64,000 nt of DNA. It comes from Chondrosia reniformis. Its lineage: Eukaryota > Porifera > Demospongiae > Chondrillida > Chondrillidae. The translations under genes were made by a program, and so were the position numbers. Where the stretch lies: contig OX359189.1 of assembly GCA_947172415.1 (NCBI GenBank), forward strand, positions 9,996,501 to 10,060,500. Direction: 5' to 3'. This document shows positions 13,832-57,711 of this stretch, piece after piece (position 1 is the stretch's first letter; the number at the start of each line of letters is the position of its first letter). The notes below the pieces were generated by a model, which saw nothing but the letters and a program-made list of their open reading frames with translations, was not told where the DNA came from and ran no database searches.

Positions 13832-14065
13832 ACCTGAGGATTCACAGAAGATCAAGATAAAGAAAAAGACAAAGACTCCCAGGATCACTGATAAAGGGTG
13901 GAATTCCCAGAAACGGCTGTCTGACCCCGTGGAGAAGAAGATGAAAGAAGGGAAAAGAAGGAAGAAAAGACTCCTGTATCTTCATCCAAAGCTCTCTTCA
14001 GGTTTAGTTCCCCTATAGGCTCTTTTACAGAATAGGCATATAGCATGTAGGAAAATGGTATCTTA
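13832..14065. repeat. Dispersed CT-rich repeat, inverted copy inside a gene B intron
   Basis: Reverse complement of the block at 2940-3185. It lies between tail and TM exons where gene C has no counterpart, so it probably inserted after duplication. Confidence 0.6.
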
Positions 14066-15499: not shown

Positions 15500-15815
15500 C
15501 TTAACTATACACTTCTGTGTTTGGGCGCACCAAGCTGAAGTAGGAATGGTGCGCCCAAAAAGAAGAAAAAATGAATTTTGGAAATGGGTCTATTCCTGGT
15601 TAGCCGCTTTTCGAATGCTGTAGAGCGTATAGAAACATGTTTTGGCATTTAGGAAAGTGTGTATCAATGGCTGCAAATAACCGAATATAACCGAAAATCG
15701 CCTTGTTGGTGATTTATGAGGTGTTGCTTGCTAATACATTGGATAGGGTGGCCATGTTTTTCCGGCCATTACTACTTAGAGAGTACTACCGTATACGTAC
15801 TCTCTGATAATTTAA
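15500..15815. mobile_element. MITE-like repeat with GGGCGCACCA hairpin
   Basis: Contains the inverted pair TTTGGGCGCACCA / TGGTGCGCCCAAA and ends near AGAGAGTACTACCGTA. Related sequence occurs at 26530-27010, 27430-27950 and 28205-28455, and weakly at 53040-53120. Here it separates FN3 and Ig exons of gene B. No coding capacity seen. Confidence 0.5.
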
Positions 15816-17249
15816 GTTCCTTCCTATTATTCCACTACTAACCTTTAACCATTAACTGTACAGTTACTGAATCCCTCCCAACTCCATTGCTCACTTCACA
15901 ACTGTAGTATCCTCTGTGGTTCCTAACTACTGAAGATACACTCAACACATAACCAGTTGTAGTGACACTCTCATCAGTTGATCCAGTGTTGTTGTAAGAG
16001 AAGGAGACAGTAGCTGGAGGATTGCTTTCTATTGGAGTGCAGTTCAAAGTGAATGAAGCACCAGCATTTAGTGTAACACTCTGTTGAATATCACCAAGTA
16101 CAGGAGGATCTGAAAGTATGGAACACTACATAACACATGTATACACTTTTATTAGATAACTAAACTGCCACTCACAGTATACATTCAGTGTAAAGTTGGC
16201 AGATCCATTTCCAGCTACATTACTACTGAATATAGTGTACACTCCAGAATCACTTCTATTGACATCGCTGATTGTTATACTGTTTACAGTTACAGTAATT
16301 CTGCTACTATTAGAGATAATCTGACCATTCCTTCTCCAAGTGTAACTATCTGGTTGAGGGTCAGCACTGATAATATAGTTGTACATAAAGGTGTCTCCTT
16401 CAGTTGGAGTAGTGGACTGGACTGATGGAGATGGAGTGTAGGAGGGAGGATCTGTAGAAAGATATGTAAACAAGCTATATCGATATTATAGTCCACAAAG
16501 GGATTAACTCACATGCTACGTTGAGAATAGCTTTCTTAGATGAAGTAGCAAGTAAGATATTTTTGCAGACAAGTGTTGTTCCACTTTGTTGTCTGGTGAC
16601 TGGTCCGAAGCTGTATATGACTACGTGATTAACTGTGTCTAATTCGGAAGGGGCTAAGTCTGCTATCGTATTAATCCCTACGACCTCGGACAGTCTAATC
16701 GCACCAAGAAGCTGTTCAGTGCTCTCTGGAGTGCAGGTCAGTCTTAGTGTACTACCCTCTACTACTAGTACTTCACCTTCCGGAGAGATGGAGATGGAAT
16801 TGACTCCACCTGTGAAATGTAGAAGCGGTACTATATTATAGGTAATCCTGATAGGAATTAAATACGATGGAATTGCGTTGCATATTATAATTCTACATTG
16901 TATAACGTACACGAGTATGGTCCTTAGTTTACGAACTTATACGTACCTGGAAAACTGCTTAATAATATCCCAAAGAAATATAAACGACTTTCATCACTTT
17001 TGGATCAGACCAAGACACTGAACTTATACTGACCAAATTGTGCTTTTAGAAGTTACTACTGTATTATAGGAAATACGCCATCTTCAAACCAACCCCACCT
17101 AGTTGATATAGATGAGTGCCTAATTTTGCAGTGTTTAGTCTACTAAAGGAACTTGCTAATTAAAAGCAAACACAAATTGAAATTGAAACTGTACATGTAT
17201 AAATAAACAATGTAACACAAGAAATATAATTGGAGCTCAAGGAGGAGAT

Positions 17250-21078: not shown

Positions 21079-23979
21079 TTAAGAAGGCATTTCATACGTA
21101 ACAACATCTCCTTCTATGTCTACCATCTTCTCTGCTTTTCCCTTCTTTTGAGATCCAGTTACTTGAGATGGTACAGCATAAGAAGGATTGTGTTGCATAT
21201 CAACAACATTCTTCATCTCACAGTCTTCATATGTGGGATTTTTAGGAGGAGGTGGTTTGGAAGGGACATCTGTGAAAATAGTAAGTTTAATGCATAGATC
21301 AATCAACAATTTTAATGTAATGTAAATGCACTGAGCTATATCATGCAATTGAATGTCTCTGATATGTTTATATATAATGTCTCCTATATATACATGTACG
21401 TATGTTGTATTGTCCAGACTGGATGTTGCAATCGGTAACTAACAACTACCATTTGAAAATTCCCACTAGATTGACGTCACCGTGCATGCAGCGATAACCT
21501 TTTCAGATTATCGATTGCACTGTGCAGTCTGGACAACTGACCCAGAAATACTGTATTATTCTCTATGTATAGATAAATAATGTTTAGAATGCACTACAAC
21601 ACTCACTAGTTCTGTTGCACTGTTTACCACAACAGATGAATATGATTGTAGTGATCACTGCTCCCATTATCAGACCAAGAATGAGTCCTCCAAGTGAACC
21701 AGCTACTGAACCAGCTACCAGTTGTCTGAAGGAACATGAAGGGGAAGTCCCTGGTGATGTTAACACTATTATAGAAAACCAACGAATATATAACAGTAAA
21801 AATACAAGGTAGAACAGAAATGGGGGGGATATCAAAAATATTGTAGTATGTATAATTTATTATAATTACTCATCAAATGTCTTCCTTTTCAAATTCATTA
21901 AGTTGGCTTGTAATTAAGGATTCTCATGAGAACCATAGAGCTCCAACAATGAGCAGCCATTTTTCCCATTAGTTTCCATAGCATGTGTTAAAGGCAAAAT
22001 TAACATGTAACACACTGACAATTACACTTGAATTTATGAATTGCAAAGATAATAAAGTATTTAAGGTATCATTGTTCATCTATATATACTTTATGGATAA
22101 ATCTTGTAAGCATATAAGTAGTAACAGCATCAATCACAAAGGACTTGATGTTTGATGGGGCACAAATTGGAAACAGAATTGAAGGGGCCATGTCCCTCAG
22201 TGCTTCCTATGTGTACATACTCTTGGTATAATATAATACTAAGTCTTACTAGTTTGTTCATCATTTATGAAATCATACGAATATAGTGATACGAATATTT
22301 AATTAACGGAGTTCCTTACCTGGTATATATAATCTTGATTCAATTGGAACACTCCTGCCAATACTGTTTGTAGCAGTTACTGTGTAACTCGTTCCTTCTG
22401 TTGACTCATTTACTGTCAAGTTATAAGAGGTTCTGTTTGGCTGAGCTAAAATTGTAATGTTACTATTGAAAATTCTGACCTGTAAATAATTAAACATTCC
22501 CTCAAAAATGTGTTACAGCTAAGCATGAAGATACTACTACTCACTGTATAATTATCCACATTCTGTCCTCCATCAGTCAGTAGTACAACATCCACTGATA
22601 GAATAGTCAGTGAGAGTGCTTCAACTGATACACTCTCAATAATAGGAACTACATAACAGACAAATACTCATATACCACACTATTCACTACATGGAACTAC
22701 ATCTCACATACCTGAGTCAGGTGTACTAAAGGTACTGGCTGCTGGAGGACTCACTCCATATTCATTATCAACTACTACTCTTACACTATACATTGAACTG
22801 TGCCATATTCCATCATCCATAGTTAAGTTCAATTGAGTTGATGTTGTACTGAAGGACAAGTTGACAGTGTCATTTATCACTCTGACAGTGTAGAAGAGAG
22901 GTTGACTAGTTCCTCCATCATCAGATGGTACCTCCCAACTTAGAGTGACACTGAATGGACCATTGACTAGTGACATCAGTTGTCTCGGAACAGTCGGAGG
23001 AGCTGTAGAGATTTATAAATGTAACCACAGCTTTCTAGTTTTTCATATATATACTCACCTCTGACCATTAACTGTACAGTCACTGAATCCCTCCCAACTC
23101 CATTGCTCACTTCACAACTGTAGTATCCTCTGTGGTTCCTAACTACTGAAGATACACTCAACACATAACCAGTTGTAGTGACACTCTCCTCAGCTGCTCC
23201 AGTGTTGTTGTAAGAGAAGGAGACAGTAGCAGGAGGATTGCCCTCATCAACTGGAGTGCAGTTCAAAGTGAATGGAACACCAACATTTAGTGTAACACTC
23301 TGTTGAATATCACCAACAAGTACAGGAGGATCTGAAAAGCATACATATATATACATGTACATATTATTGACTGGCATCAATCGAGTATCTGGAGGTAAAA
23401 ATACTTCCTCTCGCTAACCCCTGCTTATTCATCTGCAGTGGGCGAACGAATACTTTCTCGCCCCTGCGCAATCATTGTCAACGGGCAGAAAGTTACCCAT
23501 AGAGCTCCCCAAGCTACGTACCACAATGCTCAAAGCAATTATCTCACTTACAGGAGACGATCAATAACAAATCTTCTGACACCGCATTCGGGTCACTTTT
23601 AGGCAGCAAATTGTCTATGCAACTGAATATTGACCCAGTATAGCTTCTGTTAACCGGACCGAGTGAATAGGTCACCGAACGAGCAGTTTCGTTTAAAGTC
23701 CTAATTCCCATTTCATAAGGGAGCTCGGAACCATTTCTATAAAGAAACAACCCTTTGTGGTTGATATTTCCTTCACCCGCACAACATGTGATTTCCAAAC
23801 TTGATCCTTCAACTAATTGTACTCGGAGACTAGGAGAAATGGTTGGAGCTGCCGTAGTTACACCAAGAAAACCTGGAGGATTCAAAATACAGCCATACCG
23901 TGTTTGCATTTATTATATTTATATATTAGTATATAAGTGATTGTTGCTTACCAAGGAGACTCAGGAGTAGATACCACAT
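21079..23979 (-). CDS. Gene C: Ig2-FN3(2) receptor with NPxY tail
   Basis: Eight exons (23979-23952, 23872-23552, 23331-23059, 23002-22712, 22648-22545, 22479-22320, 21750-21607, 21269-21079) total 1512 nt, 503 aa. The TM-exon acceptor may instead be at 21765, adding five residues in frame. Leader [10 protein letters not shown]; Ig about 10-116 ([19 protein letters not shown]); Ig 117-207 ([16 protein letters not shown]); FN3 208-304; split FN3 305-392 (YTVTATNSIG); TM about 408-433 (GLILGLIMGAVITTIIFICC); tail 441-503 with NPTYEDCEM, HNPSYAVPSQV and VVTYEMPS. Exons 1-5 and their introns are nearly identical to plus-strand gene G, whose tail is entirely different. It is likely a membrane recognition or adhesion receptor; PTB- or SH2-type adaptors are the expected partners of the tail by motif only. 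Confidence 0.88.
21410..21536. mobile_element. 127-bp MITE in gene C intron 7
   Basis: Same termini and length as 9801-9927. It lies in the intron between TM and tail exons. Confidence 0.75.
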
Positions 23980-24882
23980 TCTGTATAAAGAGTATTATTG
24001 AATCTCGTCGCATATATGACATATCGCGCAAGTGCGTAAACGCGTGCGTTAAAGAAATCATGTAACAATTACACAATGCAAGGTCTATGATGCCCCATTT
24101 AAAATTAACCAACCAAAGTTTCTGTAAAAAACTAAAGCACTAAGCAATAAAACTACATATATGCCCTTTCTTCTTCTTTTCCTTTCAAAGAGGCTTTGAG
24201 CCTTGAGCTGTAACCTAAATAAGTATAATACCTTTGGTATGTAACTATTGAAAATGTATAAGGTAAACCAAGAAGTTTGCGATGGGCAATACAGTTGCTT
24301 CAAAACATATCTTATGACTATGCATACCTTTAGCACTCTCAGAGCATCAAAGGTGTTACAGTGCAAATGCAGGATCAAGCCGTGTGGAAAAGGCACATGA
24401 AGTCAGGGCTTGAAATCATTAGCAGTGCAAAAACTGGGGTACAATTTAAGAGTTGATGAATCAAAATGCGTTACCCCAGGCAGGGTTTCATCCAGAAATG
24501 CTTGTAAGGGGGGCAAAAATTGACTTTTAAAATTTTTGCAGGGGCGGTGGAAATATGCACAATAACATGTGATCTAAGAGGGTTTTGGGCAATGGCACAT
24601 GCTCCTTGATTTTTAAACTGTTTAAAAGTGCTTCTGGTGTATCTTCTAAGCCGAAGCCAAATTAAGGCATGAACAACAGTTACACTAGTCTACACAATGA
24701 CATGTTGTTCAGTACTAATTATTGAATATATACGTATTAATAGCTAACTGGCAGGACCAATTAGCACTTCGTCAGCACTGACAATATATTCTGTCATACC
24801 TTGATAAAATAGTTAAGTGGCAAAACCTAAATCCAAGGGGGGCGAATGCCAGGTGACAAATTTAGAGCAAAGGTTGTTAGTT
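23980..24882. other. Intergenic, no gene seen
   Basis: Upstream region of gene C with a CG-rich stretch near 24020-24050 (CGCGCAAGTGCG), then repeat-like sequence with GGGGCGG and GGGGGGC runs at 24530-24850. An open frame at 24085-24396 has no splice or domain support. Confidence 0.45.
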
Positions 24883-27800
24883 CTAGTACACATGGTGGTA
24901 TACATTTTTGTATGAAGCGTGCAGTTCTACCTTACACATATTGTATATAGAATATATCTGTAATAACTGAGAACTCACTTTCTTCTTTTTCACTTTGCAA
25001 ACAACAGTAATCAGTACCACAGCAATAAGAATTACTACAAGTCCTGGAATTAGTACACACATGAATATCACAAAATCCCATGGTCGATCCACTGCAAAGA
25101 GAAAATATCTGTTTATAAAACTACAGTTATACAATAACATAAAAGCTAACCAGATATTGTAAACTCCTTAGTTGGGTTATCCACTTGACACGTGTACATA
25201 CTGGAGCCATAATTACAAGGAAATTGAAACTGAACACCATTATATACACTGCTGTTGCATGTTATAATAGGTTGACGTTTGCAATTTACTATGTGATTCC
25301 ATGGGAGATCTAACCCAAACTCCAGCCAACCACAATTAATTGGGTACTCATCAGGCACAACTTCTATACCATTAAATAAAGACAGAAAATTATTATTCAA
25401 CATACGTATAGTTAATGAAAGCCCTATACATACCTCACTTAACCGCACATATCTGTTTCATGCAAATATCCAGATAAACTGAGGGAATTGGGTAAGTGAG
25501 GGATATATCATTGATATAAAATATGTTTATGTAGGGATGGTACTGGTTGTTTCGTTTTCCCAATACATTGGTATAGGAGCAAAATTTCGAAATAAGACTA
25601 CATACAGTTAAATATAGAACAACCATGCTATAAGCTGGCCTTGAAGGCAAGCGACCATGTTCCGCTGGCAAATGAACGAACTTTGAAATTTCCCATTTTC
25701 GTTTTCTTCTTCATCTCCTTCGCCTGCTATAACTAAAAAAGCAAATAAGCTTTCAGACTACTTCTTAAGTGAAAATACTCTGCGGTGTTTTCTTTTGTAG
25801 AAGCAAGAACGATAACGTTATTATTGAGCTGACAGTTTTTATGGCCCAAGAGAGTCAAGGCTAAAGTCACCATTTTAATGATGTAATATTCAGTCAAAGA
25901 TTGCGAATCAAAAACAAGTATTTCAAGTTTAAAATCTTGTAGGGCTGCCGCCCCCGAATTAACTCGAAATAGTGACAGAAAAGCTTCGTTAACTAAAGCA
26001 TCCTTAACGCCGCCATTTGCAAAATGATGTATTGACGTATAAATTAAGTGGAAAAATAGGGGAACTTTAAGATCTAAAGCCGATCTTAAAGCATCGATAT
26101 CATCATCATTGAACTCTGGATATTACCCCGCCCACTCATGTCCCCTAAGGAGCGCAATTCTCCATATTAGTGGTCAGCCACACTTTTAGCTGTACCCCTT
26201 ATCTGCTGATAAGGAAACCACAGGTTTTTTGCTTTTGGGAATATTTATTAACAGACTAGCCACTCAAACTTTCATTGTATGCCATACTGATGAGTCATAA
26301 TAAGGATGAAACAGCTGTCTATGGCTCGACCATCTTTTTGAGTGGCTAGGGGGAGCTAGACTCTGGTTCCCATCAAGTGAACTTCGGTTCCGCCCTTTAG
26401 CTCATTGCACTCCTCAAGGGACATGAGTGGGCAGGGATAATATCCAGAGTTCAATGATGATGATATATATTAAGTGTTATAATAGTTGCGTATGAACACA
26501 TATAGTATATATATATCGGTCTATATATTAGAGATTACGGGAGTACTCTCTAAGTAGGAATGGCCGAAAGAAGATGGCCACCATATCTAATGAAAAATCT
26601 AAGATACCATTTTCCTACATGCTATATGCCTATTCTGTAAAAAGAGCCTATAGGGGAACTAAACCTAAAGAGAGCTTTAGATGAAGATACAGTAGTCTTT
26701 TCTTCCTTCTTTTCCCTTCTTTCATCTTCTTCTCCACTGGGTCAGACAGCCGTTTCTGGGAATTCCACCCTTCATCAGTGATCCTGGGAGTCTTTGTCTT
26801 TTTCTTTATCTTGATCTTCTGTGAATCCTTGGCTAATGTATTACCAATTAACACCTCATGAATTGCCAATGAAGCGATTTTCGGTTATATTCGGTTATTT
26901 CAACCATTCATGCACTCTTTTCTAAATGTCAAAACGTCTTTCGACGCTCTACAGTGTTCAAAAAGCGGTTAACCAGGAATAGGCCTATTTCCAAAATTCA
27001 TTTTTTCTTCTTCTTTTGTCAAATGGACTAGTGCTAATATGCAAACTTATGCGGGCATGTACAAGTTATAAATCGTTATAAATGTTTCCGAACTAGGGAA
27101 TAGACAGCCCTAAATCTGAATGCGCTCTACAGGAAACAGGTTAATTATGAAAAGAGAAAATTGTGGTCTTCTCGGCCACCATTTTAAGATAAGAGATCAT
27201 GGTTTTTGGCATATTTCTCTTGTCTGAGACGTTATTTCGAGATTTTTGCCAAGAAACCTTTAAAAAATAATTAGAGTAAGTAAGTTTAACAAGAAAAAGG
27301 GGGAATACAAGGAAAAAACATTTATAAAAATAATGTTAGAAGTAGGAATGGCAGTGTTCATTACTACATCTGCAAAAACTATCGAAACAAGGCAGTGCAC
27401 ATGATTATATGATAAAGCTAACATAGAAGTAACTTAACCATACACTTCTGTGTTTAGGTGCACCATTCCTACTTCAACTTGGTGCACCCAAACACAGTGA
27501 AGCATTAGCTATGCATGAATCCTACAAGCAAGGGTGTTGTATGATTCATGCATAGCTTATATGCTTCACTGTGTAACATCCCTTTCTTGTTTATGTGCTT
27601 TTTATGCCATCCCTACATCTTCTATTATTTTTGGAGAATTTTTTTATTGTTCTCTATATATGTATATATAATCATCAGAGAGTACGGTAGTACTCTCTAA
27701 GTAGGAATGGTCGAAAGAACATGGCTGCCCTATCTAAAGTATTAGCAAGCAACACCTCATAAATCACCAACGAAGCGATTTTCGGTTATATTTGATAATT

Positions 27801-29297
27801 TGCAGCCATTTATGTAAGCTTTTCTAAATGCCAAAATATGTTTCTCTACATGTTCTACAGCGTTCAAAAAGTGGCTAACCAGGAATAGGCCCATTTCAAA
27901 ATTCATTTTTTCATCATTATCTTTTTTGAATGGACTAGCGCTTACGTATATATGAACTTATGTGGGCAGCTACAAGTTATAAATCATAAATTTTTCCAAA
28001 CTAGGGAATTGACAGGCCTAAGTCTGAATGCACTCTACATGAAGCATATTAATTGTCTTCTTGGCCAGTTTTAAATAAGAGATCATGGTTTTTGGCATAT
28101 TTTTTCCCTCTGAGACATTATTTTGAGATTTTTGCCAAGAAAACAAAACTAATTAGAGCAAGTAATTTTAACAAGAAAATGGGGAATACAAGTAATTAAA
28201 TAAAAACATTTACAAAAATGATGTTAGAAGTAGGAATACAGCACATCTGCAAAAAGTATTGAAACAAGCTGAAATAGGTGCGCCCAGACACAGAAGTGTA
28301 CGTATATGCAATTAAGTTACTTAAATTTCAGTATATATGCAACTTCTGTATGATTAGCCTTATCATATAATCACTGTCTTTGTTTCGATACTTTTTGCAG
28401 ATGTATTAGTGAGCACTGCCATTCCTACTTCTAACATCATTTTTGTAAATGCTTATTTTAATTTACTTGCATATATATAAAAATTGGTCAGAAAATGCAC
28501 CTAAATGGCATCATATGTTGATATAAGAAAGAAATATGTCTGTATAAGCAATCACACCCTCCTGCATGTACAGACATATTTCTTTCTTATCTTTTCCTGT
28601 CAGTGTGTTCCCTGGCCTTTTTAGTTGTAAACAAACAACCATTCCCTATTTCGCTAAAATAATGCTGGACTCTCGAGGGAAAAGTATACTGAAAGTTAAC
28701 GTTTGTATATAAAACAACGTAACTGGATGCAGACACTGAGGTTCCTTATAAGTGCGGTAAAATTATACAATGTAAACGTGTTACAAGCAAATCAGCAACA
28801 GAATGTGTGGGAACAGGGTATGAGAGTTATGTTTAAGTGAGTTCTTACTGTATACAAAGAAATTTATAGTAAAGCTGCACATTTCAAATGTCAAGACTTT
28901 ACTACAATTTACGCTAAATATATTAAGCAAGCATCCTAGCAGTTTATTAACTTCATAATAAACTTGGCTGCAGATCTTTAAATATATGCCTTACCTTGGA
29001 CAATGAGGTTGAATGTAAATGTGGCTTTCAGTTCTTCATAACTGTTCGATACAACGCAATCATATGTACCATGATGCGCAAGAGTGACATTTAAAAACTC
29101 CAGACTACAGTTATTTATTCCTAAAATGGTCTCAGGAAAAGGATCTGGGTTATCACCTCTGAAGGTACAAGTACAACTTTCCACCGGTGGATTTCCTTCT
29201 TCAAAGACAAAAGTATAATATCCATTGTTGCATGTGCTTAGAGTTTCATTTTCCGAAGGGTCTGGAAATACAGCTGTCCCTACATGTAACCATATAC
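24883..29297 (-). CDS. Gene E/F, 3' part: Ig, Cys module, TM, short Tyr tail
   Basis: Three exons: 29297-28995 (Ig, phase 1-1, NNCSLEFLNVTLAHHGTYDC then VVSNSYEE), 25363-25151 (phase 1-1, 71 codons, six cysteines including NCGWLEF, VNCKRQPIITC, FPCNYGSSMYTC) and 25091-24883 (phase 1 in). The last exon gives a TM (FVIFMCVLIPGLVVILIAVV) and, if a GTGAGT at 24978 is read through, a 37-residue tail with SIYNMC, SYKNVYHHVY and stop. No leader is visible nearby. The entry phase matches the leader-Ig exons at 33759-34217; together they sum to 1119 nt, 372 aa. The cysteine module is not a domain I recognise. Confidence 0.6.
26051..26468. mobile_element. TIR element of about 418 bp with an 8-bp target duplication
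   Basis: Inner inverted repeats ATCATCATCATTGAACTCTG (from about 26099) and its complement (to about 26464) run about 60 bp each. ATTAAGTG flanks both sides (26043-26050 and 26469-26476). The uninterrupted site is preserved in the paralogous repeat at 36100-36120. An 8-bp duplication is typical of hAT-type elements. No transposase is encoded. Confidence 0.75.
26585..26840. repeat. Dispersed CT-rich repeat, copy in E/F intron
   Basis: Close match to 2940-3185 in the same orientation, ending CTGTGAATCCTTGGCT. It is followed by sequence of the GGGCGCACCA-type MITE family. Confidence 0.6.
27497..27572. repeat. Hairpin with arms of about 27 bp
   Basis: GTGAAGCATTAGCTATGCAT continues to GAATC and is mirrored by GATTCATGCATAGC...GCTTCAC with a loop of about 24 nt. 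It sits between two copies of the GGGCGCACCA-type repeat. Confidence 0.6.
28205..28455. mobile_element. Inverted-repeat element of about 250 bp
   Basis: AAAACATTTACAAAAATGAT at the left is mirrored by ATCATTTTTGTAAATG at the right, and internal ATCTGCAAAAAGTAT is mirrored by ATACTTTTTGCAGAT. The ends also occur singly at 15350-15430 and 27310-27390. Confidence 0.6.
28524..28589. repeat. Perfect 21-bp stem hairpin
   Basis: TAAGAAAGAAATATGTCTGTA (28524-28544, 21 bp) is exactly complementary to 28569-28589 across a 24-nt loop. The arms are A/T-rich and may be a MITE remnant. Confidence 0.65.
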
Positions 29298-29417
29298 CTA
29301 GGATAAAACTTTTAAATATATATATAAATTAACTCAATTATGAATAGTTGTTATGAAGTTATATACTAACCAGCGTAAGTTACAAAGTATAGTCACACAA
29401 GGAATATTCAACTACAT

Positions 29418-29457
29418 TGTAAAATATAGGGTGTTCATGAACACCCTATATTTTACA
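29418..29457. repeat. Perfect 40-bp palindrome
   Basis: The sequence is symmetrical around GTTCATGAAC (29433-29442) with no spacer; the left half reads TGTAAAATATAGGGTGTTCA. It lies about 120 bp upstream of the E/F Ig exon on the minus strand. Confidence 0.8.
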
Positions 29458-29829
29458 CAATCAACTTTAAACATTCCCAAACAAATATTTTACGAAATAA
29501 TTGTAACCCATAGATGATAGTAAAAATAGCAGTGGGGAAATATTATTAGGTTTTTTGAGAGATAACAGGTATGTTATATTAAAGGTTCTGCGCATGACTA
29601 ACACTTTATATTAATGTTTAATAGATATTTTAACTTGAAGGTCTCCTTCCTCACTTTGAATAGTAGATCTGATTGGGACAATTTTATCAGTGTGTCATCG
29701 CTATTAGTTACTGTTTAGTTAAATGTGAAGATCTTGATAGATTTCATGGCTTTGAGGTTATACCAATGTCAGACTTCCTATAGCTATGGAGTCTGAAAAT
29801 GAAGTTAGAAGAGAATGCTGGTTCTAGTG

Positions 29830-31510
29830 TTTTTTTGGAAGTGAGTCAGGTCTATTGGTTTGGCCAATAAGTGTAGACCCATGGTTAACTTGGAGGAGGT
29901 ATATGACAAGCAGGGTGAGGTCAAAACTGGGAATAATACTGCAGAGGTGAGATGGTCTTATTTCGCATTGGGCAGTAAAACTGAGCAGGGTGAATCTGAC
30001 ACTGGAGGTGAATTTGATGTTCTGTGGCCATCTGTTTGCAATGGAGATGACTATCAATTGGACTTGAGTAGCCAGCTGGATATGCCTATACTCCAGGATG
30101 AAGTGGATCTTGCTTTCTCCCAGGTTAAAAAAGAAGCAGCAGCTCCATCAAAAGATGGTATCTCCTTTCAAATGATGACTGTTGATGTTCTAAGAGATTT
30201 GTGGCTTGCCTTCTTTGGAGCATGTTGGAAGAGTGGTATGATTCCCTTGGAATGGCTGATAGATTTAAAGGAATTGCAATAACTTCAGTGGTGTGCAAGG
30301 TTTTTGTCATATTCTAAAGGAGAGGCTGGCTACTGTGGTTGAGGAATAAAATTATATCAGTGGCAGCCAGTTCAATATGATTTGCCCTGGGTGTTTTCAA
30401 ATTGAACGAAACAGATAAAGCTGTTATTTTGGAACATCATCACCCTTTGTCGAACTCTCCAGCTCACAAATCCTTAGGGCACTAGGACTATGAGGTGTCA
30501 GAATACTTAAATTCACTTGGCTTCCTTTCCGTAAAACTTAAGAACCATGCCCCCCTGGTTCCAACGCCTATATCCTAGGACATCACTTTTTGCAGAGATT
30601 AAATTATTGTCTGTGGAATGGGAAGGCAGAATAAGGTGCATTCTTTTCTGGCTTAGAATATTGACAGACCAGTGGTATCATCATCATTTGATACAGAGAT
30701 TGGTTTATGTGGCTTTGATGGCACCGGGAAGAGGTCAGTGAATGAAGCTGAGAACCTGTTTTGAAGCCCTTGGTTGGCATAACTGCAGCTGTGCCTCTTT
30801 TGGCTGGGGTGTCTAGGGGACAACTCAGGAAAATGGTGAGGAGTGTGGTGTGCAGTTGTGTGGAGAAAGATTGGGCTGAACATCTTGGTAACTCTGCATT
30901 TTGAACTCTGTATGGGTGAACTGTTCTGATGGTAGGTGTTCGAAGGTGACGTACAAGACAGGTCATGATGAAGGAACTGATCCTGCTGCAGAACACAGAG
31001 GCATGTAGTTGACAAATTGTTACCCTCACTCTGAGGCCAGAGCATCCAAATGGTGTCATTAGACATTTGTAGACCAAGAGACAAGACTTGGGGGTGCATT
31101 GAGCCATGCACCAGACTGGCCGGAACAAGCTGCTAAGAGGTGGGCTCTGGACACCTCATCATTGTAATTTGACAGGAGAGCATGGAACATTTGACCAACC
31201 CTTGGTTTGTCCTATGATTTTTGTCGGTTATGTGAGCTGCAAATGGGAAAAGGAGTGTCTTCTGGGAGCCAATAAGCTATACAGATATGCTGAATCTCTT
31301 TCGCTCTAGCAGGTGGATGCCAGGTGTGGTGGAAGCTGCTGCACCAGGGTGAAGGCTCCATCAGCAGAGGCCAACAAGGCAGAAGGTGCAAGATGGGAGG
31401 CACTCCTAAACCTAAAGCAATGATGCCTGCAGCCAAGATGAATCTCCTGGTTGGAAATCAATGTTGGTATAATCCTGGATATGATGGACAGGATAACAGG
31501 CCAGGTGAAT
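29830..31510 (+). mobile_element. Degenerate non-LTR retroelement
   Basis: 29860-30280 is open and contains LQDEVDLAFSQVKKEAAAPS, KDGISFQMM and CWKSGMIPLEW, which have the layout of the N-terminal reverse-transcriptase region of LINE-type elements (EV..A...K...A.G.DGI.....L, then CW..G.IP..W). After a frameshift, RFKGIAITSVVCKVF and LKERLATVVEE follow at 30255-30345. Beyond 30350 stops occur in every frame. No poly-A tail or target duplication was identified. It lies in the large intron proposed for E/F. Confidence 0.65.
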
Positions 31511-31842
31511 AAAAATACAGTACGGATCATAAATAACTAAATGATAATTTCTTTTGCCGTTTACCGAAAAAAGTGTAAGGGTTACCGCATATTCGTTACA
31601 CTTTGTTACTTCGATAGGGCAGCCGTTAACCATTAAACATTCACTATTAAACTGTTAACCGTTAACTGAAAGCCGTGAATCACCAACTGGTATTATCTGG
31701 TTTCTGTTAACCATTAATTTAGGGGCCTGCCCTTATATTGTTTTCATTAGCCGATTACGTTGTACGGCTTCATGTTACGGAAAGATATATATATATATAT
31801 ATATTATACGTACTATTTAAAATACTGATTATCCTATAGGGG

Positions 31843-32135
31843 TCACTTGGATCTCTTTAAATTTGTAACTGGAACTGTGTAGCTAGTACTTGATTGTAAT
31901 TTTAATATATATTGTATAGTCACTTGGCCCTCTTAAATTTGTAACTGGCACTGTGTAGCTAGTATTTGATTGCAATTTTAATATTGTATAGTCAGTTGGC
32001 CGTCTTACATTTGTAACTTGCACTGTGTAGCTAGTACTTGATTGTAATTTTAATATTGTATAGTCAGTTGGCTCTCATAAATTTGTAACTTGTACTGTGT
32101 AGTACTTGATTGTAATTTTAGTATTTTATATATAT
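31843..32135. repeat. Four tandem copies of a unit of about 71 bp
   Basis: Units start at about 31843, 31921, 31992 and 32063, each containing ATTTGTAACT, CTGTGTAG and TTGATTGTAATTTTA. Divergence is low. No coding content. Confidence 0.75.
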
Positions 32136-32179
32136 ATATTTATCAGTAACTTGCACCCTATATTAGATATATATATCTC

Positions 32180-32510
32180 TATATTTCGTGTTGCTGACGT
32201 TCAACTAAGATTTATTCTTATCCATGTGTGTACTTATATATATTGCACTGTGTAGTGTACTTGAGTGTAATTAGCTAACAAAGTATTTCACTATACTTAT
32301 AGACATTCACTATGAGCAATTTCGTTACTGTATGTAGTACACATGGATAAGAATACAGCCTTGTTGAACGTCAGCAACATGAATTTACTAATTCTGGACG
32401 TTTCAAAACAGAGGTCTTCATCAGCAATACATGAGAAATGGGAATACAATTCAGTATAAATAGGAAATTAGTAAATTCATGTTGCTGACACTCAACAAGG
32501 TTTTATTCTC
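32180..32510. repeat. Foldback repeat with a hammerhead-like core
   Basis: TTGCTGACGTTCAAC at about 32187 (plus) is mirrored by GTTGAACGTCAGCAA at 32363-32377, and a third, direct copy is at about 32482. On the minus strand CTGATGA (32424-32418) and GAAA (32404-32401) flank a 13-nt segment with a weak helix. Same architecture as 5337-5474 but more eroded. Confidence 0.45.
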
Positions 32511-32639
32511 ATAATGATCGCAACAAATACTCCTAATTCCTACACATGGACAAGTAAAATTATTAACAGATAACGTAAGAAGAGAAGACAGAGCTTAAAT
32601 TACCAAAGTAACAAACGAATTCAGTCTTTCGCATCAATA

Positions 32640-33093
32640 TACCGTATTCTCTCTAAATATTCGTCACTAACTTTGTCCAGGAAAATTCGTCACTTGGTCG
32701 CAAATAGAGTTGGAATGAACAAGCTGGCCGAGGGTGACGAATATTTAGATTATTTCGACGAAACATTAGAGCGGACGGCGAAACCTTGGAGCACTTTGTT
32801 AGGGGCGTTTCTCGAGACGAAATGGCGGGTTTTGAACTCACCGTATGGACAGCAGTTCGAGGGTATCACATTTACAAAGACTCCTGGGCGCCGACAGTCG
32901 GGGAAGAATTCATCGGCTACCAAGAATGGGCCAATGGACACGACAGGCACGCCTTCCAGCTGTCTGGCGAATAATTAGAGTGATGTGACGAATATTAGAA
33001 AATGGAAATTCGTCACCTATTAGAATGCGTTTGCACAGGTTTCTAGCGGATGACGAAAATATAGAGTGACGAAATTTTAGAGAGAATACGGTA
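32640..33093 (+). mobile_element. TIR element carrying a HIRAN-like fragment
   Basis: CCGTATTCTCTCTAAA at the left and TTTAGAGAGAATACGG at the right are inverted, each flanked by TA, as in Tc1/mariner-type MITEs. GTGACGAA is repeated several times inside in both orientations. The interior 32820-32975 is GC-richer and reads VRGYHIYKDSWAPTVGEEF, then EWANGHDRHAFQLSGE and stop. This resembles the start of HIRAN domains (GYH.Y...W.P..GE.....E..N..D..A). Frame and family are judged by eye. Confidence 0.55.
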
Positions 33094-33758
33094 GGAACAA
33101 CTCTGCCTCAAACTTGACGGGAACGTATACAAAAACGCTTTATCTAACCTTCGCTACAACTCGCCTGTTCGGTAGCTCCTTCTCGTAGGAGAGCGTCGAC
33201 TTGTCATAGCCATCAACAGAAGGATGATCTTCTTTAGCAACGAGGTGGTGACGTTTTTGCAACGTCACAGATTCACAACCCTGTGCATGTACGAAGTGAC
33301 ATACAAGGGTGTCGGTGACGTAATACAAAGACATCATAATACATCACCAGATTGCACAATCATAACCGTGAATTATATCTCAATTGTTTTGCAATTTTAA
33401 TTAAACTATATTTTGCCAGATGTTAGATATAACACCTGGTTTCAATATAAATTTCCTAAATGTTTTCTATAGTCCTATGGCATTTTATATGCAGACTTTG
33501 TCCTCCGTTTTCTAACAAACGGAGGCCTAAATAAGAAATCCCTTAATTTAAAATGAGTTTTATACCCTCAACTTTATGATGATATGCCCATTTTGTTTCT
33601 AGGTCCTTTCTTGGAGCCATATGAATTATTGAATTACATTACATTATTCATTTATTTATATCATTTATATTAGATTACCTTAGTATATTGTAACTTGTAC
33701 TGTATATACAGACGGAATGTATATGTGCCGTCCGTCTTATACTTGTAATGGAACTTAC

Positions 33759-34217
33759 AATTGACAGTTAACTTAACCTCAGGTGAGGTTGGAGCATCAC
33801 CTCCCATGCCAAGTCCTCGGCAGTCCACTATCAATCCGTCGGCTGTCCGATTTACATTATCAAGCATAAACATGGTTGCATCACTACTTAGATAGGCGTT
33901 CTCTATACCAGGAATCCTTGTCGTTCCGTTAACAAATGGATTCTTAGAAGACGAAGTAGGAACTATAATCCTCCAAAATATATGAATAGGATTAAGCTGC
34001 ATTGCATTTTCTTCTATTACACAGGTAAAATTAGCATTTTTACCCTCAATCACATTGGTGTTCGTAGGCTCTGTCGTGATAGAGGCTTGTCCATCTAAAT
34101 GAAGAAAATTATCTTCGCTATAAACCCATATTCGCTAGTATGTGATTAAGTCAACTAACCACTTAAGTTAAAAAAGAAAGAGCCCAGAAGAAATACTACG
34201 ATCAGTTTCTTCATCAT
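33759..34217 (-). CDS. Gene E/F, 5' part: leader and first Ig
   Basis: Exon 34217-34160 gives MMKKLIVVFLLGSFFFNLS; after a 65-bp intron, exon 34094-33759 (336 bp, phase 1-1) gives DGQASITTEPT, VIEGKNANFTC, HIFWRIIVP, then ADGLIVDCRGLG and KLTVN before a GTAAG donor. Both exons are clean. No further receptor exon lies within the next 4 kb, which is transposon-derived. The next phase-compatible minus-strand exon is the Ig at 29297-28995, so I propose one gene spanning 24883-34217. The alternative is an orphaned, secreted Ig. It pairs head to head with gene G. Confidence 0.68.
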
Positions 34218-34375
34218 ATCTTCGGGCAAAAGGTAGGAATCGGATGTAGTGGTTCTAGTCACCGGAAATTTGGTCCTAAATAAAACACGTGGTATTTTTT
34301 TAGGAAGTGCTCTAGCATTATGCATAAATTACATGAGATGCGACAACTATGCGATTGTAATACTCTTTATTCAGA
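34218..34375. promoter_or_regulatory. Bidirectional promoter between E/F and G
   Basis: Only 158 bp separates the two start codons. CCGGAAATTT at 34262-34271 matches the inverted element at 470-479. The G side shares GTAATACTCTTTATTCAG just before the ATG with gene C, where the sequence has one change. Confidence 0.5.
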
Positions 34376-37300
34376 ATGTGGTATCTACTCCTGAGTCTCC
34401 TTGGTAAGCAACAATCACTTATATACTAAGTAAATGCAAACACGATATGGCTGTATTTTGAATCCTCCAGGTTTTCTTGATGTAACTACTGCAGCTCCAA
34501 CCATTTCTCCTAGTCTCCGAGTACAATTAGTTGAAGGATCAAGTTTGGAAATCACATGTTGTGCGGGTGAAGGAAATATCAACCCCAGAGGATTGTTTCT
34601 TTATAGAAATGGTTCCGAGCTCCCTTATGAAATGGGAAGTAGGACTTTAAACGAAACTGCTCGTTCGGTGACCTATTCACTCGGTCCGGTTAACAGAAGC
34701 TATACTGGGTCAATATTCAGTTGCCTAGACAATTTGCTGCCTAAAAGTGACCCGAATGCGGTGTCAGAAGATTTGTTATTGATCGTCTCCTGTAAGTGAG
34801 ATAATTGCTTTGAGCATTGTGGTACGTAGCTTGGGGAGCTCTATGGGTAACTTTCTGCCCGTTGACAATGATTGCGCAGGGGCGAGAAAGTATTCGTTCG
34901 CCCACTGCAGATGAATAAGCAGGGGTTAGCGAGAGGAAGTATTTTTACCTCCAGATTGATGCCAGTCAATAATATGTACATGTATGTATGCTTTTCAGAT
35001 CCTCCTGTACTTGTTGGTGATATTCAACAGAGTGTTACACTAAATGCTGGTGCTCCATTCACTTTGAACTGCACTCCAGTTGATGAGGGAAATCCTCCAG
35101 CTACTGTCTCCTTCTCTCACAACAACACTGGAGCAGCTGTGGAGAGTGTCACTACAACTGGTTATGTGTTGAGTGTATCTTCAGTAGTTAGGAACCACAG
35201 AGGATACTACAGTTGTGAAGTGAGCAATGGAGTTGGGAGGGATTCAGTGACTGTACAGTTAATGGTTAGAGGTGGGTAATTTACAAAGTTTGTTTTTCCA
35301 TATGCTATACATATATTAATGTATATCTTCAGCTCCTCCAACTGTTCCAAAACAACTGATGTTACTAGTCAATGGTCCATTCAGTGTCACTCTAAGTTGG
35401 GAGGTACCATCTGATGATGGAGGAACTAGTCGACCTCTCTTATACACTGTCAGAGTGATAAATGACACTGTCAACTTGTCCTTCAGTACAACTTCAACTC
35501 AATTGAATTTAACTATGGATGATGGAATATGGCACAGTTCAATGTATAGCGTAACTGTAGTAGTTGAGAATGAATATAGAGTGAGTCCTCCAGCAGCCAG
35601 TACCTTTACTACACCTGACTCAGGTATGTGAGATGTAGTTCCATGTTTAGTGTATAGTGAGGTATATGAGTATTTGTCTGTTATGTAGTTCCTATTATTG
35701 AGAGTGTATCAGTTGAAGCACTCTCACTGACTATTCTATCAGTGGATGTTGTACTACTGACTGAGGGAGGACAGAATGTGGATAATTATAATGTGAGTAG
35801 ATAATGAAATATTATACTTTGTTGCAATGCAATTGCCAAGCATTAAACAAAAATCATTAATTTGAAATCTTATATGTATACACTTTAAGTTACCTTAATT
35901 AACTTAACAAGTATTTTGAGTTTAAAAACTGCTGCCCCCGAATTAACTCGAACTACCTGGCCGCATCGTTCGGCTTTAACATCCTAATCCTAACGATTGA
36001 GGACACTTAAGTGACCTGAACATTATAAATAGCGACAGAAAAGCTTCGTTAACTAAAGCATTCTTAACGCCGCCATTTGCAAAACGATGTATTGACGTAT
36101 AAATTAAGTGTTATAATAGTTACGTATGAACTCGTATTATATGTAAAAATACAACAAATGAGAAAAAGAGCAAACTAATCAAAATGTAACGTTTACAATG
36201 CAATCATATAAAAGATAAAGGTGATTAAATATATAATAAGAAGACATGCATGAGAGTTTAGTCAGCTGCAGAGGAAACAAGACCCCTCTGCAGTAATTAT
36301 TTGGACACTGTCAAGATCCTGTCCTGATTGAGTGGCATGATTGATGCCCATCCCACCTGTAACGGACATAACAAGGGGTGTGAATGATCCATGCTCAATT
36401 TCACGGACTCTTTGATCATAAGTCCTCTTCTTCTCCTGCTCCCGTGCTTTGTAGGTAGTAGGTGGTAGTACTCTGATGGCTTGACACTAGGGGGTTAAAA
36501 ACCCTCACATCAAAGAATGCATGAGAGCTTGACCAGAATCCTCTACATTTCACGTCTAGTCAGCAGTTGTCATCAACCTTGGCTGATTTATGATTCATTC
36601 TCTCACCTGTAATCGGCTGGAGTATGGGCTCCACTTTGACACTTGAGGTCACCTCCCAGAGCAAGGTGGCCGTTATGTCTCAAATCTCGTTGTGTCTCAT
36701 GATGTCATACCCTCCCCTGGCACAACTTAGTGCATGGCTGACATTATTCTGTTTTCCACATATACAGACACTTGACATTCCTTGTGGTCGCCATCCATAT
36801 CTCAGACGGCCTTCTTCATGGTTGGAGATAGTTGGTCACTGATTTCAGCTGCCACTTTCTTCCTTTCATTTCTAGTCCTTTCTTTCATGATCTTTCTTAT
36901 CCTGTATTGTTCCTCATCGATCAAATCTTCATTTCTACCTCCATTTCTTATTTCCTCTTTCCGGGGGCTGGCTGATGTAGTTGGTAAGCAATTGCCGGTG
37001 GAATATCAACGTATAAATTAACTGTTGTAATAGTTGCGTATGAACACATGCATTATATATAATATTATCAACATTTTCCGTAACATGAAGCCATACAACG
37101 TAATCAGCAAATGAAAACCATATAAGGGGCTAAAAACCTGAAATTTCTGAAAAAATGTTTCACATATATAACTTGTGTATACATGTATTGTGCAGATAGA
37201 GTATATAAATGTAAAACATTTTGGATCCCAGTAAATATAGATAATCTTTGGTTATATAGACCAGTTGTAATTGCTGTTTTTCAAGAACAACTGCATGCTT

Positions 37301-39766
37301 CCATGTGGTACTGCACCAAAATGTGTGGCTAATTTATACCAGACCAACATAATTTGTTGACCAGATAAATAAAATTTGCAAGTAGTGGGGAAAACTACGT
37401 ATATATAGGCCATGTGCTTCAAAACGACCTCTCTATATGTATCAATCCAACTACTGAAATAGGTGGTGATTGCTGGAAGTGATTACTTACAATTTGAATA
37501 TACGTATGTTTAGAATTAATATTTTTTATATTCTAATCTATAGATACTGATTACATCAGCAGGCTACATGAATGAGAATGTAGTTTCTACAGCTCAACTG
37601 ATGTCTCATAATTTTACTGTAGAAACATTAAGAGAAGGAGTGTATTATAATGTTAATGTAAGAGCTGTAAACAGAGTTGGACCAAGTGAAACATTTCAGA
37701 CTGGCTTTACTGTTAACATTAACATGCCAAGTAAGAAAGACATGCTCAGTGGCAGAGCAACTGGTGGTCATAACCAGCTGTCCAGGGTTCAATTCCCAGC
37801 AATTGCTTCTTTCGTGTTTTTCCCTCTTTATGATGTTTCATTGATAATTACTTGTGGTTTGATTATCACATCGATTTTTCATGCAATATTTTAATTTGTA
37901 ACTTGAATCAGATATACACTGTAATAAAATTAAATTTATCTTTTATGAATGAATATATAGCTATATATATATATAGTAGTCTTGACATTCTGTGTATTAC
38001 TGTATATACTGTAGCTATATATACACCATTTCCACAAGTGAACACACCAGCCATTGTTGGTGGTGTTATAGGAGCAGTTGTGCTTATTCTCCTCATCATC
38101 TTGGTCATCTTAATTATCCTGTTGTGCTACCTTAAGAGGAAAGAGATAAGTAAGCTTTGTAATATGTGAATGTACATTTATACGTATATACAGTACTGTG
38201 AATTTTGCTATAATGCCTATATATAATATAACATGTAATTTGTCCTATTGCAATGTAATTTAACATACATTCAATATGTTGCATAAAATGTCTATCTGTA
38301 ATAGCAAAGAAATTTGTACAATTTGAAAAATTATTTTTCTGGTACCTTTTGTAGGAGTTACAAAGGAGTAAGTGAAATATAAAAGTTGCAGACAATTGAA
38401 CTATGGGACTTCCATACTAAAAACTTCTGTCCAGGAATATCTTTTTACTTCACCTCCAACCCTTTGGAATGATTTTGCAAAGTTATAATTTACTGTTCAC
38501 ATTTTGTCCACATTGCAATTGCTATGACATTGTTATAATTAACTCCCATTTTACTTAGTTACCTTCAAATGTTACAGGAACAAGGCAGCAGGTCTACACT
38601 TAACTAAAGAGAGAGAAGTAAATAAGGCAGAACCAATTGTCTCAATGTATGCTGACACTATACATGATGAACCAATTAATGAAAAGTCTGAGACTAGCAA
38701 TATCAATAAAGAGGTGAAGTTACACAACTGTAAGAAATAGTATCTACTAATGTATTGAAAACAATTGTTAGGTATAGCTTGACAGTATAATAGAGTGTAC
38801 CTGTAGCTGTGACCTGATATGTGACTTATTCTTAGACTGGTACATTATTAAACTTTCACATCCCTTCTCTTCTCTCCTTTGATCCTTAAAGTAATAAGTG
38901 CATTTGTAGATACATTTGCAGGGATTGTATGTATGTAACAATATACTCCTTATCTTTGAGATGGTTCATCTTTTAGTCGTTTGAGTGTCTAGAGACCCAA
39001 TTGGTTCTTTTAGGTTTGGAGTCTTCTTCAGCCCTTGTAAGACTAATAGGTGAACCATTTCAAAGATACATTGGTGCAGTTAGAAGAATTCCCTATCTTC
39101 TAATTTAATCCTTTTGCAGCACCAATCTATCTATATACACATATATGATCATATAAAGCTTAGTCTATACTATTATCCATTTGCCCCTAGTACCATTAGT
39201 ATATATGTACATACACATATTATATTGACTCACCTTAAGCTACAGTAAGTCACTGGTTTCATCTACAAGCAGTTGTCTTTAGTTACTAAACTATTCCTCA
39301 GCTCTTCTCTCCCTATTTATATACATGTGTAGAGCTTCCTGCTCTTGTGGTGTCTTCGTTTCCGACTTCTTTTCCGCTTTCATTCTCTCTTGTCCACACA
39401 CAGTGTTGGTTTTATATTTGAATCAACTTGCTCTTACTCATTATGTTATGTGTCTAGTGCATTCATAATGTCAGGATCACTTGTGACCTTAACCCAGGGA
39501 AGATCTATTGCTGGATAGGTATAATACTTGTATTCTATGGTGGATATATAGCTCTGATTTTATAATATCAGTTCTTATAATAGTAGTATATCCTTCTAAC
39601 TACCACTGACAATACTACTATCAAAAGACATGACATTCCACTTCTCCATGTACAGGGACTAGTGTATGCAGATTTAGCATTTGCAAACAAGTCAACAAAG
39701 AAGCCTCCAAAAGATGTTAAACAAGAAGAGGCAGTCATCTACTCTGAAGTGAGAGTGGCTGACTGA
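34376..39766 (+). CDS. Gene G: Ig2-FN3(2) receptor with ITIM-like tail
   Basis: Ten exons (34376-34403, 34471-34791, 34999-35271, 35333-35623, 35689-35792, 37544-37730, 38015-38149, 38355-38367, 38578-38713, 39656-39766) total 1599 nt, 532 aa. Leader [10 protein letters not shown]; Ig 10-116; Ig 117-207; FN3 208-304; split FN3 305-401 (second half [13 protein letters not shown] unlike gene C); TM about 413-439 ([20 protein letters not shown]); tail 447-532. Exon 8 is a 13-nt micro-exon. Tail tyrosines: Y475 in SMYADT, Y500 in LVYADL, Y525 in VIYSEV, spaced 25 residues apart. The last two fit the ITIM pattern (I/V/L/S-x-Y-x-x-I/V/L), which recruits SH2 phosphatases in vertebrate receptors. Exons 1-5 copy gene C almost exactly. 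Intron 5 (1.75 kb) holds transposon debris. Confidence 0.88.
35920..36140. repeat. Repeat shared with 25930-26050
   Basis: Contains GCCCCCGAATTAACTCGAA and ACAGAAAAGCTTCGTTAACT. The copy at 26 kb carries the 418-bp TIR element inserted at ATTAAGTG; this one does not, and it has about 75 bp not present there. Confidence 0.65.
36230..37000 (-). mobile_element. Degenerate retroelement 3' fragment in gene G intron 5
   Basis: On the minus strand, frames interrupted by shifts read [56 protein letters not shown], then FFDVRVFNP and [16 protein letters not shown]. The CxCG...HAxxC...RHNEIRD-like series is one I associate with the C-terminal region of reverse-transcriptase-bearing elements in cnidarian and sponge genomes. 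It is opposite in strand to gene G and clearly dead. Confidence 0.55.
37738..37812 (+). repeat. tRNA-like sequence, possible SINE head
   Basis: GCTCAGTGGCAGAGCA matches a pol III A box and GGGTTCAATTCCC a B box, 34 nt apart. The middle CTGGTGGTCATAACCAG resembles an anticodon arm with CAT in the loop but has an extra base. A T-rich stretch follows. It begins within 10 bp of the gene G exon 6 donor. The acceptor stem does not close well, so it is a pseudo-tRNA or tRNA-derived SINE. Confidence 0.5.
38954..39065. repeat. Foldback element, eroded core
   Basis: CTTTGAGATGGTTCATCTTT (38954 on) is mirrored at 39041-39065 with three differences over 25 bp. The centre on the minus strand has CTGAAGA and CCAAACC where the related elements have CTGATGA and GAAAC. 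It lies in the gene G intron between the two ITIM exons. Confidence 0.5.

Positions 39767-54541: not shown

Positions 54542-57711
<3,170 letters not shown>

Follow-up and report, generated by a model that had tools for sequence, protein, structure and literature searches.

At one locus of the demosponge Chondrosia reniformis, two receptor genes stand head-to-head, 10.4 kb apart, with nearly the same extracellular part (ectodomain) and different cytoplasmic tails: gene C on the minus strand (23979–21079, eight exons, 508 amino acids) and gene G on the plus strand (34376–39766, ten exons, 532 amino acids). In both, the reading frame is open and the introns run GT...AG. Positions are those of the window, the 64,000-nucleotide stretch analysed here (C1:9,996,501–10,060,500; C1 is contig OX359189.1). 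A sequence-only reading had singled out the span 21079–39766, which runs exactly from the stop codon of C to that of G, and had drawn from it, as an inference, a parallel to the activating and inhibitory receptors for one ligand in vertebrate immune clusters.

The genome – 117.37 Mb in 14 chromosomes plus a mitochondrion according to its report (PMC12181767; this and the papers cited below are drawn on from partial text) – was searched as 117,379,552 bases in 15 contigs, and profiles made from exons of the window were scanned over 264 kb, then 284 kb, around it. All gene models here are computational. Doubt attaches to several first exons, and a stop occurs in three of the models; exon 1 of both C and G was placed by hand, the automatic model having begun the two genes elsewhere. 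Other genes are named by strand and the window coordinate of their first recognised exon (--65199 is a minus-strand gene 65,199 bases left of the window start).

The shared ectodomain and its limits

The relation between the two sequences, as the sequence-only reading described it – a common leader, two Ig domains, the first FN3 domain and half of the second, in inverted genes – is confirmed. Over the five common exons, 986 of 1017 nucleotides are identical (exon by exon in Table 1), and the alignment of exons and introns which that reading had recommended gives 20 nonsynonymous and 11 synonymous changes. Its 'about five' changes in the first Ig domain are the five that alter an amino acid, among seven nucleotide changes in all (the other two being synonymous); the outer Ig domains are 97.8% identical. 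The outer domain is Ig-like (V-like); the second is an Ig domain above the Pfam cut-offs (Ig_3, 46.2 bits in C and 51.8 in G), and the ectodomain matches are to Ig and fn3, with no EMI or EGF match in Pfam at E 0.1.

The likeness begins 18 nt before the ATG, the upstream regions being unrelated beyond about 20 nt, and stops 8 nt inside the intron that follows the 104-nt exon, just where the divergence had been placed; blastn returns it as a match of 34358–35800 to 23997–22537 (93.7% over 1471 columns, E 0.0). It had also been said to include the introns, which is right for introns 1 (65/67), 2 (207/207, with 13 gap positions) and 4 (61/63) and wrong for intron 3 (34/53 only). The similarity is thus not confined to exons, and an artefactual copy is unlikely for this pair, as the flanks and sequences differ and both frames are open.

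Two kinds of tail

ITIMs (immunoreceptor tyrosine-based inhibitory motifs) follow the consensus I/V/L/S-x-Y-x-x-I/L/V and are bound by the tandem SH2 domains of SHP phosphatases; their activating counterpart, the ITAM, is defined by two spaced YxxI/L units, and Src SH2 domains prefer pYEEI. The tails of both genes are of the types first proposed. In the last exon of G, both tyrosines fit the ITIM consensus (LVYADL, VIYSEV), an outcome reached in 1.35% of shuffled G tails, and exon 8 of C reads NPTYEDC and NPSY. Each of the ten ITIM-class models whose tail is usable shows two or more ITIM matches (in an eleventh, +-95057, the transmembrane (TM) segment was wrongly picked), and shuffling reaches the observed number in 0–2.5% of trials. 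In an alignment of seven chosen ITIM tails of this genome, down to 29% identity to G, seven columns are invariant, four of which are the two tyrosines and their +3 residues; one of the seven tails has Thr at -2 of its second motif.

Across the cluster, the tails comprise one class with a double ITIM, in two subtypes, and three NPxY classes that, by eye, look related: NPa, the type of C; NPb, with VSYEEIEM...NPAYAV; and NPc, with VVYEDV...NPSYVTV...YEECEM...NPAYGALTKPTEYSNL. The single ITIM-like matches in NPb and NPc tails (VSYEEI, VVYEDV) are at chance level (16–36% of shuffled tails), as is VTYEVL in the one NPa tail that has such a match, --25833 (21%). A strict ITAM (YxxI/L-x6-8-YxxI/L) occurs in none of 38 models, two of whose tails are truncated; the nearest approach, YGxLTxxTEYxNL with a five-residue gap, is found in 9/9 NPc models, which all carry two NPxY motifs, and not in C. 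Some NPc genes (C1:9910217–9913867 and others) also have two further FN3-like exons (PFPPNFTSPSTPLDLS..., GAPSQPSTPTYSVSG...) that are absent from C and G.

Coupling to a DAP12-type adaptor through a charged TM residue finds no support in C or G, neither of which has one. A lysine is seen only in -60461 and its duplicate -133398: the TM segment of -60461 (58691–58786, minus) reads LLLILKILI against LLLILMILI in its ITIM-tailed relatives, a possible adaptor-coupling residue present in one gene and its copy. In four of the 38 models (+-95057, --50222, -3939 and -87525) the TM segment was wrongly picked, so these say nothing on TM charge; the tail too is cut short in +-95057 and -87525.

As for candidate readers of the tails, SH2, SH2 and PTP exons occur twice in tandem at C3:9105336–9116548 (minus), as judged from profile matches and frames read by eye. 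One SH2 piece of one copy has PTPN11/SHP2 as its best PDB match (E 5e-32), with SHP-1 (PTPN6) next. The genome holds two predicted SHP2-type phosphatase copies that could read ITIMs; genome-wide there are 82 SH2 and seven PTB domain matches.

One cassette, several tails

Since the FN3a exon, the 104-nt exon and the tail of C recur in many other genes, C and G are one of several such pairs: the same outside with a different inside, inverted, is found several times in the cluster, which in 284 kb comprises 42 gene groups that have two or more ectodomain exons (some of them fragments), 37 with a recognisable tail. The genes --25833 (NPa) and +-18499 (ITIM) share their whole ectodomain, 2,248 bp at 97.2%, with outer Ig domains 98.8% identical. 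In +150799 (no recognised tail) and -158218 (ITIM), 2,211 bp match at 96.8% (outer Ig 98.6%), and the inverted repeat stops just after the 104-nt exon, as it does in C and G. The join between cassette and tail thus lies just after that exon in two pairs and just before the TM exon in a third. Less close are +80373 (ITIM) and -87525, with outer Ig domains 94.4% identical (the model of -87525 contains a stop, and its tail is NPa-like but degenerate), and -60461 (NPb), whose outer Ig is 90.7% identical to that of +54712 and 90.8% to that of +65871, both ITIM genes. The outer Ig changes are four nonsynonymous and none synonymous in both --25833/+-18499 and +150799/-158218.

The history of C and G themselves appears mosaic. 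Intron 2 is identical and intron 3 replaced. The Ig exons of C are nearest to those of G (97.8% and 97.4%), with --65199 a close second for the first Ig, and its FN3a exon is nearest to that of +150799 (96.9%). In a window-by-window comparison, 120 nt of C from 24060 downward are 99.2% identical to --65199, an NPc gene on the minus strand 89 kb away. Exon 6 of G resembles NPc genes, --65199 among them, at 93–96% in windows starting within its first 60 nt; the match to the entire ectodomain of G is therefore --65199 (C1:9931301–9929048, minus), not C. Genome-wide, the C-type outer Ig exists in four close copies (92–100%): those of C, G and --65199, and another at C1:5830791.

The association of ectodomains with tails was compared with shuffled labels in 33 tail-bearing groups (the 37 less four copies in a duplicated block). 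For the outer domains, the nearest relative has the same tail class at no higher rate than under shuffling, in 13 of 26 groups for IgV (shuffled, 14.5), 12 of 28 for Ig2 (16.1) and 19 of 30 for FN3a (18.9), whereas the TM exon keeps its tail class (26/30 against 17.0, p 0.001). The 104-nt exon is 95–100% identical to its nearest relative in 32/32 groups that have one. On these results, the tie of ectodomain to tail is already loosened ahead of the TM exon.

Tail classes nearly always keep to one strand. In C1:9.88–10.21 Mb, ITIM-class tails are 14 plus to one minus and NPxY-type tails 35 minus to one plus, in a tally that takes matches up to E 10, many of them above 0.001, and leaves out a fragment match at 10005937; outside it are two weak ITIM-like matches on the minus strand at C1:6.82 and 6.84 Mb (E 0.4–0.7). 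A second, small cluster (C4:2584377–2617991) has three ITIM matches, all on the minus strand, and NPxY matches five plus to one minus; its polarity looks reversed with respect to C1, but on few NPxY matches, four of the six being at E 0.001 or above and one of these containing a stop.

Other features of the locus

Table 1. Exons of genes C and G, and related receptor genes and fragments in the window
Feature	Position	Strand	Remarks
C exon 1, leader	23952..23979	-	hand-placed; identical to G exon 1 (28/28 nt)
C exon 2, outer Ig-like (V-like) domain	23552..23872	-	314/321 nt as in G
C exon 3, second Ig domain (Ig_3/I-set)	23059..23331	-	Pfam; 266/273 nt as in G
C exon 4, first FN3 domain	22712..23002	-	fn3 23.6 bits, slightly below the 25-bit cut-off; 277/291 nt as in G
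C exon 5, 104-nt exon, first half of FN3-2	22545..22648	-	last exon common to G; 101/104 nt as in G
C exon 6, second half of FN3-2	22320..22479	-	differs from G
C exon 7, transmembrane exon	21607..21765	-	best 21-residue stretch without charged residue
C exon 8, NPa tail	21079..21269	-	NPTYEDCEM, NPSYAVP, VTYEMPS
G exon 1, leader	34376..34403	+	hand-placed
G exon 2, outer Ig-like domain	34471..34791	+	
G exon 3, second Ig domain	34999..35271	+	
G exon 4, first FN3 domain	35333..35623	+	profile FN3a
G exon 5, 104-nt exon	35689..35792	+	likeness to C stops 8 nt beyond, at 35800
G exon 6, second half of FN3-2	37544..37730	+	nearest to NPc-tailed genes, not C
G exon 7, transmembrane exon	38015..38149	+	
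G exon 8, 13-nt micro-exon	38355..38367	+	
G exon 9, part of tail	38578..38713	+	SMYADT
G exon 10, double ITIM	39656..39766	+	LVYADL ... VIYSEV
Sister receptor -8116: SIS-type IgV, NPc tail	5548..8221	-	two NPxY, YGALTKPTEYNNL
C-type TM/tail fragment	9542..10069	-	99.4% to C 21151–21678 over 528 nt; no ectodomain exon found adjoining
Sister receptor -16807: SIS-type IgV, two Ig, partial FN3, NPa tail	13385..16809	-	first exon uncertain
Relic of G-like TM exon inside NPxY gene -16807	14396..14456	-	83.6% over 61 nt; in-frame stop
Sister receptor -19892: FPT-type IgV, two Ig, FN3, 104-nt exon, NPa tail	17250..19916	-	
Sister receptor -52453, NPb tail	50225..52455	-	
Second inverted pair in window, ITIM member +54712	54542..57711	+	SMYADV, ILYADL, VIYTEV; shorter ectodomain (IgV + FN3a only)
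Second inverted pair in window, NPb member -60461	58174..60492	-	VSYEEI, NPAYAV; Lys in TM; first-exon model poor

The relic of a G-like TM exon inside -16807 (Table 1) suggests a scar of past tail replacement. A 20-kb block at 49970–70000, which runs past the window, recurs 73 kb away at window-relative positions 122899–142937 with 99.36% identity and may be a recent segmental duplication or a retained haplotype; some gene copies may therefore be retained haplotypes, with C and G not among them.

Between C and G lie an Ig-Ig-TM gene with a very short tail and without the FN3 exons of this family (minus, 24979–29279) and, at 29560–31500 and 31833–32124, transposon-like reading-frame remnants together with a 72-nt tandem repeat. 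A short Ig gene (minus, 33759–34217) is divergent from G and begins about 160 bp from its start codon; its Ig type recurs on the plus strand at 621–955 and 10208–10548, and genes of this type are possible co-receptors or ligands of the cluster.

Relation to known receptor systems

Each of several known systems resembles part of this arrangement. In primates, SIGLEC11 and SIGLEC16 stand head-to-head, about 9 kb apart, with repeated conversion reported (PMC5701461). C and G share this layout, and in the SIGLECs, too, one member has ITIMs, while the N-terminal ligand-binding region is homogenised by conversion (PMC5701461). However, SIGLEC16 depends on an ITAM adaptor for activation, having no signalling motif itself (PMC5701461), whereas C carries an NPxY tail and lacks a charged TM residue; in the sponge, a single cluster holds several such pairs, built of Ig and FN3 domains. 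CEACAM genes with ITIM and ITAM tails are likewise oppositely oriented, with conversion centred on the ligand-domain exons, and inverted copies have been argued to aid intrachromosomal conversion by aligning these exons (PMC5112662, PMC2832619). The opposite transcriptional orientation of the tail classes is as in CEACAM1/CEACAM3 and the Ceacam pairs of Xenopus; the activating CEACAMs differ from the sponge genes in domain make-up and in having an ITAM or ITAM-like tail.

Among invertebrates, Botryllus FcoR and Hydractinia Alr are clustered genes of the immunoglobulin superfamily (IgSF) with ITIM-type tails (PMC12065747, PMC11999971), like the genes described here. The likeness lies in cluster and tail type: FcoR has V-Ig, sushi and C2 domains and is partnered with fester genes, and the available text of the two papers describes no inverted pairs with the same ectodomain. 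The closest functional parallel for an opposition of NPxY and ITIM is Draper, which combines NPxY with an ITAM and whose splice form Draper-II uses an ITIM to bind Corkscrew, an SHP2 orthologue (PMC8092387); it is, however, a single alternatively spliced gene with an EMI/NIM-repeat ectodomain, whereas the sponge has separate genes with Ig and FN3 domains.

With paired receptors as usually defined, C and G have in common highly similar ectodomains in one cluster and one ITIM-tailed member. The other member should have an ITAM or a charged TM residue, and C has neither; because this defining activating feature is missing, we do not file them as activating and inhibitory paired receptors. Of the proposal of such a pair, the inverted shared ectodomain and the ITIM tail of G stand, joined by an SHP2-type phosphatase in the genome; the activating nature of C finds no support. 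Compared with CED-1, Draper and MEGF10, C has the NPxY motifs (NPTY, NPSY) without the EMI/EGF-like ectodomain.

A proposed modular cluster and how it may work

The explanation that we consider fairly probable is a modular demosponge receptor cluster in which one ectodomain cassette is used with different tails, C and G working in the manner of paired receptors. The cassette – leader, outer V-like Ig, second Ig, FN3 and the homogenised 104-nt exon – would have been joined repeatedly to different TM/tail modules. Within the cluster, tail lineages nearly always keep their strand (ITIM plus, NPxY minus) while cassettes move from one strand to the other, for which gene conversion or recombination among inverted copies is the simplest account. 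The inverted layout may itself be relevant here, since, as is argued for CEACAM, conversion within the chromosome can bring the ligand exons of inverted copies into register.

On binding of a ligand, Src-type kinases would phosphorylate the tails. The two ITIMs of G would then draw in the tandem-SH2 phosphatase of SHP2 type and so lower signalling, which we hold to be quite probable, the inhibitory half being well supported by sequence. The NPTYEDC/NPSY tail of C would instead recruit PTB and SH2 adaptors and give a non-inhibitory, probably engulfment- or adhesion-like output; for a signal of this kind through NPxY and pYED adaptors we see somewhat less than an even chance. As the ectodomains stay nearly identical, a single ligand could be coupled to both outputs, in the manner of vertebrate paired receptors; whether C and G do read the same ligand is, on their similarity, an evenly balanced matter.

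A number of observations weigh against this explanation. C has no ITIM, no charged TM residue and no ITAM under either a strict or a loose definition; with the latter two missing, its tail is likelier to be of an NPxY plus pYED type, of the adaptor or endocytic/engulfment kind, and C and G need not signal in 'opposite' ways. The 20 nonsynonymous differences, together with the unlike second half of the second FN3 domain, mean that identity of ligand is not assured. The ITIMs are not kept everywhere: the last one of +-95057 has Thr at -2, and +65871 and its duplicate, both outside the seven-tail alignment, read ILSADL, with serine in place of the last exon's first ITIM tyrosine. Reassortment is not entirely free, as nearest relatives for IgI keep tail class (18/23 against 12.8, p 0.035, binary) and in a five-class test IgI, FN3a, FN3b1 and FNb2 all beat the shuffles (p 0.022 or less). 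Six of eight ITIM genes have an NPxY-class gene as nearest outer-Ig relative; random labels give 5.8, so this speaks for reassortment and is no proof of pairing. The strand bias of the tails (Fisher p 6e-7, genes treated as independent) is no evidence of function, because the genes lack independence and would show the same bias after in-place tandem duplication; four NPxY-type matches, moreover, lie on the plus strand at C1:9689104–9708052, left of the cluster and outside the counted interval. By outer-Ig clade, dN/dS (the ratio of nonsynonymous to synonymous rates) spans 0.33–1.59 with no clear diversifying selection, and we therefore make no claim of it. Gene conversion in the cluster, finally, we infer from the mosaic pattern.

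Much of this would also follow from exon shuffling and tandem duplication in a fast-evolving cluster of adhesion receptors, without functional pairing, in which ectodomains are alike only because they were copied recently, and the tails govern trafficking (NPxY endocytosis) or the strength of adhesion. The modules are indeed copied widely, down to the near-identity of the 104-nt exons and of the tail of C to a solo fragment; a 20-kb block is duplicated at 99.4%; nearest relatives by outer Ig agree in tail class as often as random labels predict; and FN3-containing architectures are typical of adhesion molecules. Yet ITIM positions are kept in seven aligned tails although the rest diverges to as little as 29% identity, the lost tyrosine of one gene and its duplicate notwithstanding, and --25833 and +-18499 keep a nearly identical ectodomain while their tails differ, which leaves this account rather improbable. 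That one of the copies is an assembly artefact or pseudogene is more improbable by far: retained haplotypes could exist, given the block that recurs 73 kb away, but C and G differ by 3% in their common exons, their flanks and the introns after exon 5 are unrelated, and both frames are open.

Two further accounts assign the genes a particular role, and each seems to us possible and on the unlikely side. The cluster might be a homophilic allorecognition complex, as Hydractinia Alr or Botryllus fuhc, whose near-identical ectodomains bind each other across cells while the two tails signal self or non-self. Clustered, diversified IgSF genes with ITIM tails are what Alr and FcoR also show (PMC12065747, PMC11999971), and outer-Ig dN/dS is near 1 (0.95) in the DYP clade; on the other hand, a protein search with C found no relative among 7,995 candidates scored, and the sponge coverage in the available text of the two papers names no such receptors. 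Alternatively, C might be an engulfment receptor in the style of CED-1 and Draper, with NPxY and a phosphotyrosine motif, and G its built-in brake. The two NPxY motifs of C recall the NPxY and ITAM of Draper, and the ITIM of G the Draper-II form that binds Corkscrew (PMC8092387); NPc tails, with two NPxY and YGxLTxxTEYxNL in 9/9 models, point the same way. But the ectodomain is of Ig and FN3 domains without an EMI or EGF match, C has no YxxL, and strict ITAM spacing is absent from all 38 models (two with truncated tails).

Implications

Paired stop/go receptors in clusters of opposite orientation are known from vertebrates (PMC5701461, PMC5112662, PMC2832619), and ITIM receptors from a tunicate and a cnidarian (PMC12065747, PMC11999971). 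Among the titles and abstracts listed by a literature search, with most subscription journals outside it, none reports ITIM-tailed or paired receptors for a sponge. The sponge cluster has a layout much like the vertebrate one, its 'go' half being putative. Together with an SHP2-type reader, it would carry stop/go logic to one of the earliest animal branches.

A bolder and doubtful extension is that inhibitory (double-ITIM/SHP2) and engulfment-type (NPxY) sponge receptors share ligand domains, the opposite orientation being itself the working part. Were this true, tails would stay on their strand while ectodomains are copied across, so that each new ligand domain would soon have both outputs – an arrangement that would be of use in allorecognition or in sorting symbionts within a bacteria-rich sponge – and the Siglec/CEACAM arrangement of vertebrates would either have arisen independently or be far older, at the base of animals. 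The cluster would give sponge self/non-self recognition concrete candidate receptors, and it would offer a natural test of whether inverted orientation is selected for the copying of ligand domains between tails.

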